In this document: in pieces, positions 44,743-63,374 of the stretch
Numbering within the stretch: position 1 is the first letter of the stretch
Layout: each line of letters begins with the position of its first letter
From: Rhizobium sophoriradicis
GTDB lineage: Bacteria > Pseudomonadota > Alphaproteobacteria > Rhizobiales > Rhizobiaceae
Assembly (NCBI RefSeq): GCF_003939025.1
Contig: NZ_RQIH01000009.1
Location: 186,001-250,000 of the forward strand
Length of the DNA: 64,000 nt
Direction: 5' to 3'
Translations under genes and position numbers: made by a program
The notes under the pieces: model-generated
What the model saw: the letters and a program-made list of their open reading frames with translations, nothing else
Databases searched by the model: none
What the model was told of the DNA's origin: nothing

Positions 44743-45333
44743 TTATTTCGGGTAAAGTGCGGTCTGGCCGCCGCGTGAGCCGGCCGGTTCGAGCAACATC
44801 TGGCAGCCTCATCGATCTGTTCCGGGGTCATCGCGCGGACAACGTTTCGCATTGGCTGCTGATGTCGTTTTGACGTGTGACGGAGACGAACGCCGCCCCT
44901 GGGATCCACAGCTCCGCACTCGACTTCTTTAATTTCCCTGGGGTTGGATGCCGTGTCTCTTCACGGGGTGGCAGCCGCATGGATCCCAGGGTCAAGCCCT
45001 GGGATGACGGAGGAGATGTGGTGCCTGGTGACATCGGCTCAGCAGCCGCGAAAGAGCGACGGCAAAAACAGCGCCTCAAAATTGCGCCGGCGGTGCGTCT
45101 GGGCGACGAAGCCAACCCCACACTCCGTCATCCCAGGGCTTGACCCTGGGATCCACAACCTCGCACTTGGCTCGCTAATTTCCTTGCAGATGGATGCCGT
45201 CGCTCTTAACGCAATGCCCGCTGCATAGGCGCCGGATTAAGGCAGAGGACGACGGAGCGAGGGGAGGCCGGAGAGCATCCGGCAGCGGCGGCGGGCGATG
45301 GTCGTAGCCTGCCCGCGCAATGACCGCAGATCC
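44743..45333. other. intergenic with mosaic palindromic repeat
   Basis: No gene was seen in these 590 bases. The middle (44896-45156) holds repeat modules shared with 61.5-62.5 kb. The segment 45160-45333 shows nothing recognised. Confidence 0.65.
44896..45156. repeat. mosaic repeat locus with palindromic ends
   Basis: The block contains GGATCCCAGGGTCAAGCCC-type palindrome at 44981-45010 and its inverse at 45126-45154, plus a half copy near 44896. Between them lie one 25-bp unit (GACGGAGGAGATGTGGTGCC) and a module GGTGCGTCTGGGCGACGAAG. The same modules, in the same order, recur at 61.5-62.5 kb. Confidence 0.8.
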
Positions 45334-49553: not shown

Positions 49554-50120
49554 TCATTTGCAGTCCTCGGTGCCGGCGGCATCCTTCTTGACCTGGCCGG
49601 GCGCGCAGCCCTTCTTGCCCTGGTTGTCCTTGGAGCCTGCAGCGCTGCTGCCGGTGCCGACGGTGCTGCCGGTCTTGTCTCCATCAGCCGACGAGGCGCC
49701 GGTGCCGACGCTCGAGGCCGAATTCGCATCGCCCGAGCCTGCGGCGGAGCCGCCCGTGCCGACCGAGCTGCTCGATGTGCCGCCGCCGGCCGAGGAGCCG
49801 CCCGTGCCGAGCGTCGAAGCGGAACCGGAGCCCGATCCTGCGGCCGAGCCGCCGGTACCGACCGAGCTGCTCGACGTGCCGCCGCCAGCCGACGAGCCGC
49901 CTGTGCCGACTGTCGAGGACGAACCGGGGGTGCAGTTGGTCGCGCCGGCAGCGCAGGTGCCCCCGGCAGAGCTGCCACCAGTACCGACCGTGCTGCTCGC
50001 AGTTCCGCCGCCGGCCGACGAACCGCCGGTGCCGACCGTGCTCGAGGATTGGGCGAATCCGGAAGCCGCCGTGCCGGCCAGAAGGGCCGCAGCCAATGCA
50101 AGATGTGTTACCTTCATCAT
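49554..50120 (-). CDS. exported Gly/Ser tandem-repeat protein C
   Basis: The ATG at 50120 has GGAGG 7 bases upstream. The 188-residue product has a signal peptide (VTHLALAAALLAGTAASGFA) and then eight imperfect repeats of about 17 residues built on SSSTVGTGGSSAGGGT. One repeat is interrupted by a Cys pair (GTCAAGATNCTPG), and the tail is KKGCAPGQVKK..TEDCK. It is the first of the three gene set. Repeat number may vary between strains. The function is unknown; a surface or matrix role is a guess. Confidence 0.65.
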   Translation of the reverse strand: MMKVTHLALAAALLAGTAASGFAQSSSTVGTGGSSAGGGTASSTVGTGGSSAGGTCAAGATNCTPGSSSTVGTGGSSAGGGTSSSSVGTGGSAAGSGSGSASTLGTGGSSAGGGTSSSSVGTGGSAAGSGDANSASSVGTGASSADGDKTGSTVGTGSSAAGSKDNQGKKGCAPGQVKKDAAGTEDCK

Positions 50121-57808: not shown

Positions 57809-57887
57809 ACCGGACCGTTTGACGACGACGGGCGACGGCGAAAGCCGTGCGCCCGTTTTTCGTTTTCAGCGCAGTTTGCGGGGGTGG

Positions 57888-58043
57888 CCCCTTCATCCGC
57901 CTGCCGGCACCTTCTCCCCGAGGGGAGAAGGGGTACGCCGCCTGCCTTTCCTTCCCATTATTCGAGGGAAGATTTGGGCACGGCATCGACCCCGAGTCTC
58001 TTCTCCCCGGCGGGGAGAAGGTGCCGGCAGGCGGATGAGGGGG
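57888..58043. repeat. RIME-like repeat, copy 6, head-to-head palindrome
   Basis: Its left end CTTCATCCGCCTGCCGGCAC and its right end GTGCCGGCAGGCGGATGAGG are near-perfect inverted copies of the RIME right arm, about 29 bp each, with CTTCTCCCC/GGGGAGAAG inside. The middle contains no CCCTAACCCTCTC arm. It ends 23 bases before the smc start codon. Confidence 0.8.
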
Positions 58044-58066
58044 CTTCCTGCCGTGGATTTATCCGC

Positions 58067-61000
58067 ATGAAGTTCAACAAGCTGCGCCTGGTCGGCTTCA
58101 AATCCTTCGTCGAGCCGACGGAATTCATCATTGAGCGGGGGCTGACCGGCGTCGTCGGCCCGAACGGCTGCGGCAAGTCCAATCTCGTCGAAGCGCTGCG
58201 CTGGGTGATGGGCGAGAATTCCTACAAGAACATGCGCGCCTCCGGCATGGACGACGTGATCTTTTCCGGTTCCGGCAACCGCCCGGCCCGCAACACCGCC
58301 GAGGTGGCGCTCTACCTCGACAATGGCGAGCGCACCGCGCCGGCCGCCTTCAACGATGCCGACGAGATCCAGGTCACCCGCCGCATCGAACGCGAGCAGG
58401 GCTCGCTTTATCGCATCAACGGCAAGGAAAGCCGCGCCAAGGACGTGCAGCTGCTGTTTGCCGACGCCTCCACCGGCGCCCGATCGCCCTCGATGGTCGG
58501 CCAGGGCCGCATCGGCGAGCTGATCCAGGCAAAGCCGCAGGCCCGCCGCCAGCTCCTGGAAGAGGCGGCCGGCATATCGGGCCTGCATTCGCGCCGCCAC
58601 GAGGCCGAACTGCGCCTGCGCGCCGCCGAAACCAATCTCGAGCGTCTCGACGACGTCACCTCGCAGCTCGAAAGCCAGATCGAAAGCCTGAAGCGCCAGG
58701 CCCGCCAGGCGAACCGCTTCAAGACGCTGTCGGCCGATATCCGCGGCCGCGAGGCGATGCTGCTGCATATTCGCTGGGTGCAGGCGAAGGAGGCCGAAGC
58801 CGAGGCCGACAGCGCCCTCAACCAGGCAACCGTCATCGTCGCCGAAAAGGCGCAGATGCAGATGGAGGCGGCGAAGAACCAGGGCATCGCCAGCCTGAAG
58901 CTGCCGGAACTGCGCGAGGGCGAGGCGCGCGCCGCCGCCGCGCTGCAGCGTCTGCAGATCGCTCGCAGCCAGCTGGAGGAGGATGCCGGCCGCATTCTGC
59001 GCCGCCGCGACGAGTTGACCCGCCGTCTCGCTCAGCTCGCCGAAGACATCCGCCGCGAGGAGCGGCTGGTCGCCGACAATGCCGTCATCCTCGCCAAGCT
59101 CGACGCCGAAGAGGCCGAGATATCGGAAATCCTCGCCGATTCCGGCCGTTATGCCGAGGAAACCCGCGAGGCCTTCGAGGGCGCGGCGGCAAAGCTTGCC
59201 GACAGCGAACGCGTCTTCACCCAGCTGACCGCCGAGCGCGCCGAGGCTGCGGCCGGCCGCAATCAGCTGGAGCGCGCCATCCGCGATCTCGCCGACCGCC
59301 GCATGCGCCTCGAACGGCAGATGAACGAAGCAAACCAGGAACTTGCGGCGATCGGCGAGAAGATTGCCGACCTGCCCGATCCCGAGGAGAAACGCGCCAT
59401 CGTCGAAGCCGGCGAAATCGCGCTCACCGATGCCGAAGCCGCCGTCCAGGGGATCGAGCAGGCGCTGGCCGCCGCCCGCCAGACCGAAGCGCTGTCTCGC
59501 GCCCCGGTCGATCAGGCCCGCGCCGGCCTCAATGCCATCGAAACCGAGGCCCGCACCATTTCCCGCATGCTCGCCGCCGGTGCGGCCGCCGGCAAGTTTC
59601 CGCCGGTTGCCGACGAGCTGAAGGTCGATCGCGGCTTCGAAACCGCGCTGGGGGCTGCGCTCGGTGACGATCTGGAATCGCCGCTCGATGCCGAAGCGCC
59701 GGCCCATTGGTCGGAGAATGGCGATGGCGCCGGCGATCCCGCGCTTCCCGCCGGCGCCACACCGCTGTTGACCCATGTCCGCGCCCCCGCCGCGCTCACC
59801 CGCCGCTTGCGCCAGATCGGCCTGGTCGACGAGGCCGAAGCGCAAGCGCTGATGGCGGCGCTGAAGCCCGGCCAGCGGCTGGTGACGAGAGAAGGCGCAG
59901 TCTATCGCTGGGATGGCCATGTCGCCGGCGCCGACGCTCCGAGCGCTGCCGCCCTGCGCCTTGCTCAGAAAAACCGCCTGGCCGAGCTCGAGGGCGAAGC
60001 GGCGCTTGCCCGCGACGTGCTCACTGAGGCCGAGGAACGGCAGGCGGCGGCCGCCGAGGCGATCCGGGTGGAAGAACGCAAGCTCACTGAGGCGCGCGAC
60101 ATGAGCCGGCTGTCGGCGCGTCATCTGGCCGAAGCCCGCGATGCGCTTGCCGCGGCCGAACGTGCCTCCGGCGATCTGATCCGCCGCCGCGACGTCGTCA
60201 GCGAGGCTGCCAGCCAGCTCGGCGCGCAGCTGGAGGAGATCGGCATCCAGGAGGAAAATGCCCGAATCGAGCTGGAGGATGCGCCCGATCTGACCGAGAT
60301 CGACGAGCGGCTGCGTTTCCAGCAGGTGGAGGTGGCGACCGATCGCGGCGCGCTCGCCGAAGCCCGCGCCCGCCATGAAAGCCTGGCGAGGGAAAACGAA
60401 GCCCGCCAGCGCCGCATCATGGCGATCGCCCAGGAGCGCGAGACCTGGCGCCAGCGGGCGGCAAGCGGCGAGGATCATGTCGCGACACTGCGCGAGCGCG
60501 AGGAGGAGGCGCGCGAAGAGGCGGCCGATCTGGAAATGGCCCCGGATGAATTCGACGACAAGCGCCGCGCGCTGCTCTCCGAATTGCAGAAGGCCGAGGA
60601 GGCGCGCCGCAATGCCGGCGATCTCCTGGCCGAGGCCGAACGCATCCAGCGCGAGGCCGACCACAAGGCGGCGACCGCACTTTCGGAACTGGCCGAATGC
60701 CGCGAACGCCGCGGCCGCGCCGAGGAGCGCCTGGTCTCGGCCCGCGAAAAGCGTGGGGAAAGCGAAAGCCGCATCCGCGAGGTGCTGAATGTTCCCCCGC
60801 ACGAGGCGCTGCGGCTCACAGGCCTCCAGCCGATGCAGGCGCTGCCCGATCCCCGCGAGGTCGAGCGCGATCTGGAGCGGCTGAAGATGGAGCGCGAGCG
60901 GCTCGGCGCCGTCAACCTGCGCGCCGACGAGGAACAGAAGGAACTGAGTGAAAAGCTAGAAGCGCTGATCAAGGAGCGCGACGACGTCATCGATGCGATC

Positions 61001-61528
61001 CGCAAGCTGCGCGGCGCCATCCAGAGCTTGAACCGAGAGGGCCGCGAGAGGCTGATCGCCGCCTTCGACGTCGTCAACGGCCAGTTCCAGCGGCTCTTCA
61101 CCCATCTCTTCGGCGGCGGCACTGCCGAGCTGCAGCTGATCGAATCCGACGACCCGCTCGAAGCCGGCCTCGAAATCCTGGCCCGGCCGCCCGGCAAGAA
61201 GCCGCAGACCATGACGCTGCTCTCCGGCGGCGAGCAGGCGCTGACGGCAATGGCGCTGATCTTCGCCGTCTTCCTCACCAATCCGGCGCCGATCTGCGTG
61301 CTCGACGAGGTGGACGCGCCGCTCGACGACCACAATGTCGAGCGCTATTGCAACCTGATGGACGAAATGGCGGCCTCCACCGAAACCCGCTTCGTCATCA
61401 TCACCCACAATCCGATCACCATGGCCCGCATGAACCGCCTCTTCGGCGTCACCATGGCCGAACAGGGCGTCTCCACCCTCGTTTCCGTCGACCTGCAAAC
61501 CGCCGAACGCCTGCGCGAGATCGCCTGA
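58067..61528 (+). CDS. smc: chromosome segregation protein SMC
   Basis: SMC is the condensin ATPase that compacts and orients chromosomes. The 1153-residue protein has Walker [10 protein letters not shown] at 31-39, long coiled coils, a hinge (about 500-640, with [18 protein letters not shown]), and a C-terminal head with signature [14 protein letters not shown] and Walker [14 protein letters not shown]. The ATG at 58067 has no clear ribosome site, and the RIME-like repeat directly precedes it. Longer upstream reading lies in the repeat and is rejected. The ScpA/ScpB genes are elsewhere. Confidence 0.96.
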
Positions 61529-61571
61529 GGTTTGCGTGGCGGCTGTGGATCCCAGGCTCAAGGCCGGGGAT

Positions 61572-61650
61572 GACGGCGGAGAGGTGGTGCCTGGATGGCG
61601 GAGGAGAGGTGTTGCCGGGGCGACGGAGGAGAACTGGTACCGACTTGACC
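61572..61650 (+). repeat. 25-bp minisatellite, array 1
   Basis: About three units of GACGGAGGAGAGGTGGTGCC plus five variable bases, directly after the palindrome at 61547. Confidence 0.75.
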
Positions 61651-61885
61651 GGGGAGGGTGGCGAGGCAAATAGGGCGCGCCGGCGCGATCAAGCTACGGC
61701 AGGCGGGGGCGAAGCAAGCTGCATCGCCGGTGCGTCTGGCAACAAAACCAACCACACTCTCCGTCATCCCCGGGCTTGACCCTGGGATCCACGACCAACA
61801 CGCGGACTTCCATTTCTCTGCAGTGGGACGCCTTCGCCGTTCGCCCAGCGCCAGCCGCATGGATCCCAGGGTCAAGCCCTGGGAT

Positions 61886-62060
61886 GACGGAGGAGAGGTG
61901 GTGCCCGGATGGCGGCGGAGAGGTGGTGCCCGGATTGGCTGAGGAGAAGTAGTGCCGGGCTGACGGTGCAAGGGTGGTGCTGGGTTGGCCGTGGAGAAGG
62001 TAGTGCTTGGCTTGCGGTGGAGAAGTATCGGTGGACGGAGCAGAGGTGGTGCCGGGACCA
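61886..62060 (+). repeat. 25-bp minisatellite, array 2
   Basis: Six to seven diverging units of the 25-bp motif; the first two differ at few positions and later ones drift. They follow the palindrome at 61861. Confidence 0.8.
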
Positions 62061-62278
62061 CAAGCTGCGCCGGACGCAATGAAGCGAGCCGCGAGCGCGG
62101 CGAGGCAAACAGCATCGCCAGTGCGTCTGGCGAGAACGCCAACCACACTCTCCGTCATCCCAGGGCTTGACCCTGGGATCCACAACCAAGCACGCGGACT
62201 TCTAATTGCTCTGCAGTGGGGCGCCTTCGCGGTCCACCTAGTGCCAGCCGCATGGATCCCAGGGTCAAGCCCTGGGAT

Positions 62279-62425
62279 GACGGAGGAGAGGTGGTGCCCG
62301 GATGACGGAGGAGAGGTGGTGCCTGGGTGGCGGAGGAGAGGAGGTACCAGATTGACGGCGGAGGTGGTGCTCCGCTCGACCGAGGAGAGAATATCCGAGT
62401 GGACGGAGCAGAGGTGGTGCCAGGA
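62279..62425 (+). repeat. 25-bp minisatellite, array 3
   Basis: Five to six units of the same motif, with the first two (GACGGAGGAGAGGTGGTGCC) nearly the same. They follow the palindrome at 62254. Confidence 0.8.
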
Positions 62426-62597
62426 AACGAGCCGCGCCGGGCGCGATCAACCGAGCGCGGCGGAGAAAGCTGCATCGGCGGTGCGTCTGGCGGCAAAGCC
62501 AACCACACTCTCCGTCATCCCAGGGCTTGACCCTGGGATCCACAACCAAGCCACTCGGCTACCGTGGGACTGTTCGCCGACCCGGCATGATCCCCGA

Positions 62598-63248
62598 TCA
62601 CCCACTCGATGCCGCCTGGAAGACGGCGAGCTGCGCGGCGAAGGCGCGTTGGTAGGCCGGGCGGGCTTCGGCGCGGGCGACATAGGCGGCGAGGTTCGGG
62701 TATTCATCCAGGATGTTCGATGATTTCAGCCGCAGCAGCACCGTGACCATCAAGAGGTCGCCGGCGCTGAAGGCGCCATCGAGCCAGTCGGCATCGCCGA
62801 GGCGGGCGGAAAGGCTGTGCAGCCGCTTGCCGATGCTCTCCTCGAGTGCGCGCAGGCGCTGCTCGTACCAGGGCTGGTCACGTTCGAGGATTCTGGCGAG
62901 GCTGTGATCGAAGACCGGCGGCTCCACGGTGTTGAGCGCGGCAAACATCCATGAAATCGCCCGCGCCCGGGCATTGGTTTCGTCCGGCAGCAGGCCGCCG
63001 TGACGCTCGGCGATATGCAGGACGATCGCGCCGGACTCGAACAGGGTGAGATCGCCTTCCTCATAGGTCGGGATCTGCCCGAAAGGCTGCAGCGCCAGAT
63101 GCGCCGGCTCCGTCATCGCCTTGAAGGAGACGAGACGAACCTCGTAAGGCTGCCCCACTTCCTCGAGCGCCCAGCGAACCCGCATGTCGCGCGCCAGGCC
63201 GCGGCCGCGATCGGGCGAACGTTCAAAGGCGGTAATGGTAATCGTCAT
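62598..63248 (-). CDS. glutathione S-transferase family protein
   Basis: This 216-residue GST has an N-terminal thioredoxin-like domain (MTITITAFERSPDRGRGLARD, with FGQIPTYEEGDLTLFESGAI marking the glutathione site: cis-Pro and the E-S pair) and an all-helical C-terminal domain. The ATG at 63248 is chosen because GGAGG lies 5 bases upstream; the ATG at 63260 has no such site. The substrate is unknown. Confidence 0.9.
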   Translation of the reverse strand: MTITITAFERSPDRGRGLARDMRVRWALEEVGQPYEVRLVSFKAMTEPAHLALQPFGQIPTYEEGDLTLFESGAIVLHIAERHGGLLPDETNARARAISWMFAALNTVEPPVFDHSLARILERDQPWYEQRLRALEESIGKRLHSLSARLGDADWLDGAFSAGDLLMVTVLLRLKSSNILDEYPNLAAYVARAEARPAYQRAFAAQLAVFQAASSG

Positions 63249-63374
63249 CGCTTCCTCCATCGCTGTCTGTCCTGAAGACGTCCGGCCGGACGGGATTCCG
63301 ACATCGATATTCGAGATAGTCCTCGCCGCAGCTTCGCATAGGGCGCAAGCGATGCACGCTACCGGCGCCGAGCG

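Follow-up and report, generated by a model that had tools for sequence, protein, structure and literature searches.

What is the repeated block of palindromes that lies behind smc in Rhizobium sophoriradicis, and what has multiplied it there? The block is found near the end of the 64,000-nt stretch of DNA that we analysed (the window), which is part of the contig that we call C67. At window positions 61546-62542, between the convergent genes smc (a mechanically called frame at 57884-61528, plus strand, whose real start probably lies downstream of its GTG) and a glutathione S-transferase (62598-63260, minus strand), we observed six CGTC-tagged REP palindromes, 25-bp minisatellites and a fixed flank module. 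The palindrome, P, reads CCGTC-ATCCCAGGG-CTTGA-CCCTGGGAT-CCA, or differs from this by 1-3 bases, and its copies start at 61546 (-), 61761 (+), 61860 (-), 62152 (+), 62253 (-) and 62512 (+), in alternating orientation. The coordinates, the module structure and the P+ to P+ periods of 391 and 360 bp that the initial annotation gave for this block all hold.

Read from the smc side, and on the plus strand unless stated, the array opens with a minus-strand REP (61546-61576), a ATCCCCGGC stem variant with one stem mismatch. Three 25-bp minisatellite copies follow (61568-61642), copy 1 overlapping the tag end of the REP, and then the first copy of the 36-bp flank module Q (61722-61757; ...GTGCGTCTGGCAACAAAACCAACCACAC). 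Dimer 1, arranged head-to-head, comprises a left REP with one mismatch to the consensus (61761-61791), a 68-bp spacer (61792-61859) whose ends are similar to those of the nuclease elements described below, and a right REP (61860-61890, minus strand). It is followed by a degenerate minisatellite block in which five copies were found (61882-62054) and by the second Q (62113-62148). Dimer 2 has its left REP at 62152-62182, a 70-bp spacer at 62183-62252 that reads CAACCAAGC...GTGCCAGCCGCA and has ends as in nuclease elements, and its right REP at 62253-62283 (minus strand); four minisatellite copies (block at 62275-62422), the third Q (62473-62508) and the last REP (62512-62542) complete the array. 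Each P- to P+ interval holds minisatellite copies and then the module of about 36 bp, and the first minisatellite copy after each P- overlaps the last bases of that P-. Since the 25-bp repeat starts with the REP's own terminal bases, it was probably born by slippage at the REP edge. The arms of four of the 14 inverted pairs are 100% complementary over 33 bp. The REPs open mechanical frames reading VIPGLDPGIH or similar on both strands (61558-62549), which look like false ORFs. Rfam gave no match within the window at the gathering threshold, and we rejected an RNA-family identity for the array on this ground. Clustered REPs of alternating orientation with mosaic spacers also make up the BIMEs of enterobacteria, from which the array differs in the class of its REPs. 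The RIME elements, reportedly described by Osteras in 1995, are likewise intergenic mosaics in rhizobia.

According to the available text of Di Nocera, De Gregorio and Rocco (2013; PMC3733652), CGTC REPs consist of a tag, a stem, a loop and a CCA tail, predominate in Alphaproteobacteria and occur mainly as head-to-head dimers. The array palindromes share all of these properties: the terminal unpaired tag is CGTC (the class admits CGTC or TGTC/CCTC), P has a stem of 8-9 bp starting with AT, a loop of 4-5 nt and a CCA tail, and head-to-head dimers, here plus-then-minus pairs 68-70 bp apart, predominate. The palindromes at the smc site are CGTC-tagged REPs of this class. In the same text, such REPs are without a dedicated transposase, their enzyme is left unassigned, and grouped elements are rare except in Neisseria and Wolbachia; the REPs described here differ in forming arrays and in bracketing a GIY-YIG gene. 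Other CGTC subfamilies with compensating stem changes (AGGCC, TTCCAGGCC, GCTCGG, CCTCGGG, TTCCTGTG) are scattered over many contigs of the genome.

The subfamily of the array is confined in its distribution. In the 6.66-Mb genome, all 17 copies of the exact 23-bp core lie within about 40 kb (C67:230983-271336). With the array as query, long matches were found in C67 only, those on other contigs being REP-sized, at most 73 bp (40 of the 90 candidate stretches scored). Within the window, one further composite unit (44896-45155, plus strand) consists of a truncated REP, a spacer, a REP- (44980-45010), a minisatellite (45002-45026), a Q-like module and a REP+ (45125-45155). The initial annotation rightly recognised the same module order in it, although its first palindrome is truncated, and took it for the sole other copy, which it is not: a second, larger array, C67:269645-271438, stands in the opposite orientation about 20 kb past the window end, with about 21 kb between the two arrays. 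Unit 2 of the smc site matches this inverted array perfectly over 174 bp (window 62150-62323, plus strand, identical to C67:271170-271343), and a perfect tract common to both arrays shows that copying was recent. A palindrome scan allowing up to nine mismatches, from which we judged the conservation of P, found 13 of the 16 palindromes in the two arrays to be identical, while five dimer spacers, located like the dimer ends and unit identities with patterns that held P nearly fixed, differ by 14% on average. The copying itself is visible as sequence identity, in the 174-bp tract and the 13 identical palindromes. Elsewhere in the window, a 99-bp tandem repeat (also period 48) at 49685-49927 probably lies within a Pro/Glu-rich coding region.

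Near-identical palindromes beside more variable spacers, in an array between convergent genes, could also reflect a host function, in which the REP cluster 3' of smc acts as a bidirectional terminator, an mRNA 3'-end stabiliser or a gyrase/IHF-type site, and P is under selection. We regard this as improbable, as orthologous sites carry other REP subfamilies or none, and the window lacks any Rfam match. We named 80 smc loci, of which 58 were scanned for modules and all 80 entered the gene-order test and the ORF control. R. croatiense has one full P+ to P+ unit at the smc site, the window genome two, and R. bangladeshense and a further genome (G053) three each, plus partial ends. R. esperanzae, R. 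redzepovicii and others carry other REP subfamilies, and in R. aethiopicum the intergenic gap is 41 bp long and contains no REP. Since the occupants vary among relatives, the site is a REP hot spot whose occupants change. The local tandem amplification that the initial annotation proposed is borne out by the variation from one to three full units. It is not a lone case, however, given the smc-site arrays in the three other genomes, and what is amplified is not a normally single-copy dispersed element: it is built on REP dimers arranged head-to-head, and such arrays recur at two sites at least, in several species.

The amplification had also been thought possibly recent, with alignment of the units suggested as a measure of age. 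The two window units share 82% identity. Higher values link unit 2 with units of R. croatiense (92%), R. bangladeshense (91-93%) and G053 (90-92%), so the pair either predates these species splits or unit 1 has been overwritten; the best match of unit 1 (88%) is a unit of the inverted array. These identities do not support a recent duplication of the two units. Recency does apply to other events, namely the 174-bp tract and the three 352-bp units of R. bangladeshense, which are 99-100% identical. As a difference of 18% makes the units resolvable in assembly, and similar arrays occur elsewhere in assemblies of 5-8 contigs (G007, G009, G039), an assembly artefact is unlikely. Overall, the earlier interpretation is partly supported.

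Which enzyme might have copied the dimers? The window genome gave no match to Y1_Tnp (PF01797) at E 0.001, in a search that was positive in five of 14 control genomes. It therefore contains no RAYT, nor does it contain a REP-bracketed Y1 transposase gene of the kind that characterises RAYT/REPtron systems, and we rejected mobilisation of the REPs by a RAYT. The inverted array, outside the window, holds a different gene in the place where a dimer spacer would stand. This gene (C67:270143-270424, minus strand) encodes 94 aa and lies within a head-to-head REP pair, with the REP+ 43 bp before its ATG and the REP- 34 bp past its end; the layout of the element is REP+, about 20 nt, gene, about 35 nt, REP-. 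Its product matches PF01541 with 64.3 bits (cut-off 22.6), and positions Y6, Y17, G19, R27, H31, E64 and N83, which we take to be the catalytic ones, are conserved in 99-100% of 90 sequences. With the domain over its cut-off and the key residues kept, it is a member of the GIY-YIG superfamily. Judged by sequence, the solved structures nearest to it are those of UPF0213 proteins (1zg2, E 0.0003), and NCBIfam yielded a below-cut-off match only, to TIGR01453, a group I intron endonuclease model. Over 23 nuclease copies, dN/dS is 0.047, indicating strong purifying selection; conserved in this way and in its key residues, the nuclease should be useful to itself or to its host.

In the window genome, an aas-like gene (MFS, acyltransferase and AMP-binding domains) precedes the inverted array. 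Of 20 stretches fetched for the nuclease or for its REPs, nine contain the end of this gene, and each of them has the nuclease at 91-97% identity, so the site of the inverted array is an orthologous home of the nuclease. For the second nuclease copy of genome G007 (L258) we make no claim of a position at the smc site, its 3.5-kb stretch having no smc match. Contig C2 of the window genome carries a frameshifted relative next to a REP, and on contig C3 another CGTC REP adjoins a paralogue of 53% identity. The remaining two GIY-YIG matches, one on contig C8 and one within an 801-aa frame on C64, stand in loci of about 3.2 kb that contain no REP. A second REP family of the same genome (ATTCCTGTG/CACAGGAAT) adjoins the paralogue on C3 (L122, L125).

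The association of nuclease and REP extends well beyond this genome. At E 1e-20, 78 of 148 Rhizobium genomes have a nuclease match. Of the 25 copies listed with at least 91% identity, we fetched 21. In 16 of these, a REP+ whose stem has no more than one mismatch lies 43-52 bp before the ATG, the remaining five having a variant or decayed REP at the equivalent start-side place; in 13, a REP- follows 26-50 bp after the stop. At 78-82% identity, a REP lies within 300 bp upstream in nine of ten copies, none of which is bracketed, a point against a role of the nuclease in REP spread. At 53-62%, all 22 loci examined, which are part of the matches listed, have a REP within 350 bp, and in 19 it is of the ATTCCTGTG type.

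When the search was extended to the class, a nuclease match at E 1e-12 was present in 134 of 387 genomes. We examined 89 loci from 66 genomes, consisting of 29 newly fetched ones (one of them, L185, from Rhizobium itself) and the next 60 places in a capped table ranked by similarity to the C67 nuclease (G000:C3, G495:C72 and G338:C16 skipped), and thus the most similar loci rather than a random sample. A REP was found within 260 bp in 64 loci, with a REP+ upstream in 38, a REP- downstream in 46 and bracketing on both sides in 31; the 25 loci with no REP in this range, and the 58 unbracketed ones altogether, again speak against the nuclease. Up to 300 bp from the gene there are 160 REPs in 53,058 bp (3.0/kb), versus 14 in the 182,298 bp beyond (0.08/kb), a 39-fold excess (89 class loci; Fisher p ~1e-85, ancestry uncorrected). 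Such hairpins are rare by chance, given that dinucleotide-shuffled flanks of the nuclease genes contained a mean of 0.2 (20 shuffles) and the 178 real flanks 158. Among 2781 control ORFs (mechanically called, at least 150 aa, from the 80 Rhizobiaceae loci), 10 have a REP+ upstream, 12 a REP- downstream, and none is bracketed.

The REPs also appear to be matched to their genes. Those on either side of the same gene are alike (mean 0.90 versus 0.57 when shuffled) and are identical in 14 of 31 cases. REP distance tracks protein distance weakly (Mantel r 0.22, 53 loci, none of 2000 permutations as high, ancestry uncorrected). A division by loop class (4-nt versus 5-6-nt loops) was set aside, as it gave only a weak separation of the proteins (0.41 versus 0.43). 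Different REPs accompany different nucleases. We also applied the REP finder to nine named records of a plasmid collection, and it was positive in eight, with none in Planktothrix; by its criteria, the gene is bracketed head-to-head in four, CIAT894, Shinella, Aeromonas and Sphingobium. Photobacterium has eight repeated REPs beside the nuclease gene and N. gonorrhoeae ten; the distance in the former (nearest REP 178 bp off) and the orientation in the latter (nearest REPs facing the opposite way) count against the nuclease, as does the negative result in Planktothrix. Throughout the class, and in several bacteria outside it, small GIY-YIG genes of the C67 nuclease family thus often have CGTC REPs on both sides or next to them. 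In Azospirillum lipoferum (AZO_p3 254021-257290; L290), the nuclease gene stands between the suf genes sufB and sufC, flanked on both sides by a REP dimer. On plasmid p1 of Planktothrix agardhii (L289), a related GIY-YIG gene has a type IIL restriction enzyme (MmeI) on one side and DISARM drmA on the other, and is adjoined by GTCATTCTGAG repeats that the REP finder did not score.

In the genomes that allowed distances to be measured, the REP subfamily of the array clusters around the nuclease gene. All nine Rhizobium genomes with at least ten exact REPs carry a nuclease gene of at least 90% identity. Distances were analysed in five of these and in part in three fragmented ones, the ninth genome, G107, being left out. 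In the five genomes, 21 of 23, 13 of 15, 19 of 19, 10 of 10 and 17 of 17 exact REPs (80 of 84 in total) lie within 60 kb of such a gene, where uniform scatter would put 2-4%. The genome G068 is an extreme case, with all ten exact REPs within 1.7 kb of a gene copy, on each of two replicons. In the three fragmented genomes, the nuclease contig carries 11 of 13, 10 of 19 and 5 of 14 exact REPs (26 of 46), none of them farther than 60 kb from the gene, and the remaining 20 are on other contigs. A nuclease of at least 90% identity occurs in 11 of the 18 Rhizobium genomes that have an exact REP, versus 9 of the 130 that have none (Fisher p 3e-7, ancestry uncorrected). Both sets contain exceptions that weaken the case for the nuclease, as 7 of the 18 genomes with exact REPs lack such a copy, and 9 of the 20 genomes with such a copy lack an exact REP, though all nine show another subtype near the gene.

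Short REP dimers have their two internal ends in common with the nuclease element. At the left, most gene-bearing copies read REP-CARCCAAGCACTCTGC....ATG (CAACCAAGCCGGC in the copy of the window genome). At the other end, seven copies differ by no more than one change from GTGCCAGCCGCA-REP, and others have different endings. In short dimers, the usual forms are REP-CARCCAAGCACG... and ...GTGCCAGCCGCA-REP. Another subfamily offers a parallel: the short dimers of G002 end in GTGCTTGCGGCCA or one change off, like the gene-bearing copies in G104 and G076. By their ends, the short REP dimers therefore look like gene-less relatives of the nuclease element.

Descent in either direction is possible, however, and the dimers could have come first. 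A nuclease gene of the homing type might be a parasite that inserts into pre-existing REP dimers of other origin and function. The match to the intron endonuclease model TIGR01453, weak and below its cut-off, would fit this, as would the state of one orthologous chromosomal site, which in G007 and G009 is roughly half a megabase away from the array region. There, the window genome has a broken gene with flanks 91-93% identical to those of G007, G076 has an intact gene with one flank in common, and G007, G009, G018, G003 and G020 have REP dimers without a gene. We nevertheless consider an insertion of this kind rather unlikely. In many copies the REPs on the two sides of the gene are both undamaged, whereas the gene of a DDE transposase in R. 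esperanzae split the REP that it entered, and the ends next to the gene in the nuclease element recur in the short dimers.

We think it probable, instead, that the smc block is a tandem cluster of CGTC-REP dimers that are gene-less relatives of the nuclease element and have been copied locally by way of the nuclease. The GIY-YIG nuclease would recognise and cut its own REP, probably as a single-stranded hairpin, and repair, through gene conversion or template switching, would copy REP dimers into nearby REP sites. Such local copying would let a REP subfamily spread and stay uniform locally. Unequal exchange between dimers would then create tandem units of REP dimer plus flank, and the smc array would be one product. 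Cutting by the nuclease, and its causal role in local copying, are what we infer here. More tentatively, and with appreciable doubt, CGTC REPs in general might be the ends of a transposase-free mobile element, whose single-domain GIY-YIG nuclease would cleave the hairpin of its own REP in single-stranded DNA and so drive the repair-based copying of gene-less dimers into local families and tandem arrays such as that at smc. This would be a second enzyme-based route of REP spread, parallel to RAYT.

Neither a target-site duplication nor a clean empty site, the marks of insertion sequences and classical MITEs, was found at the smc and 44.9-kb sites, which counts against copying by the nuclease; REP-less orthologous sites exist there, but their flanks are too diverged to draw an exact boundary. 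Arrays can, moreover, arise by ordinary slippage or recombination without any nuclease. The REPs might accordingly be passive repeats, subject to slippage and unequal recombination among themselves, with the nuclease gene as an uninvolved neighbour. Hairpin repeats are prone to slippage, the 25-bp minisatellite that begins with REP bases looks slippage-born, and the 352-bp units of R. bangladeshense are a clean duplication. Passive repeats would leave unexplained why REPs of this subfamily cluster close to the nuclease on two replicons alike, and why nuclease genes lie beside or between REPs at preferred distances across the class, and we judge this account unlikely.

The REPs and their nuclease have parallels in known systems. 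RAYT/REPtron and REPIN systems (GTAG REPs) likewise combine REP dimers, a REP-bracketed enzyme gene and short non-coding derivatives; the system described here differs from these in its tag and its enzyme, and in the absence of a Y1_Tnp match in the window genome. Ssn proteins are said to be small single-domain GIY-YIG nucleases that cut single-stranded DNA site-specifically and are paired with the NTS repeat of Neisseria. The study concerned, reportedly in Nature Communications in 2025, is said to stress ssDNA cutting and transformation. A homologue in N. gonorrhoeae that is 56% identical to the C67 nuclease and set among CGTC REPs is, we presume, the published Ssn. The C67 nuclease resembles the Ssn family in being a small single-domain GIY-YIG protein paired with a repeated sequence, and the bracketed element, its short relatives and the local tandem arrays would go beyond it. 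The Ssn study may already contain part of the nuclease-REP association. A literature search, with subscription papers mostly outside its range, found no link of GIY-YIG genes with REPs among the matches listed, as judged from titles, the opening lines of abstracts and term counts. The accessible text of a GIY-YIG survey (Dunin-Horkawicz 2006; PMC1564403) describes stand-alone small nucleases, as found here; it does not contain the string 'palindrom', and reports no GIY-YIG homing endonucleases in Alphaproteobacteria.

The smc array is a side view of a more interesting system of nuclease and REPs. The association provides a possible enzyme partner for REPs that were thought to have none, and a GIY-YIG nuclease with matching REPs would explain both the concentration of a REP subfamily within a few tens of kb and the tandem arrays. 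The association also joins two literatures, on REP biology and on Ssn nucleases.

Other mobile elements were also seen next to REPs. At the smc site of R. esperanzae (L015 13547-14857), the gene that splits a REP is that of a DDE transposase (PF01609), and on the CIAT894 plasmid (L295 1613-2758) an annotated IS4 family transposase gene lies just upstream of the nuclease element. REPs may thus be targets of insertion sequences. Finally, a sequence starting with CATAGGCGCTAACTTAG follows the REP bases CTTGACCC at several contig ends (the ends of L020 and L117, the start of L120, and C67:297787 onward), and has the look of a single insertion sequence for which the REP is the target and at which assemblies break.
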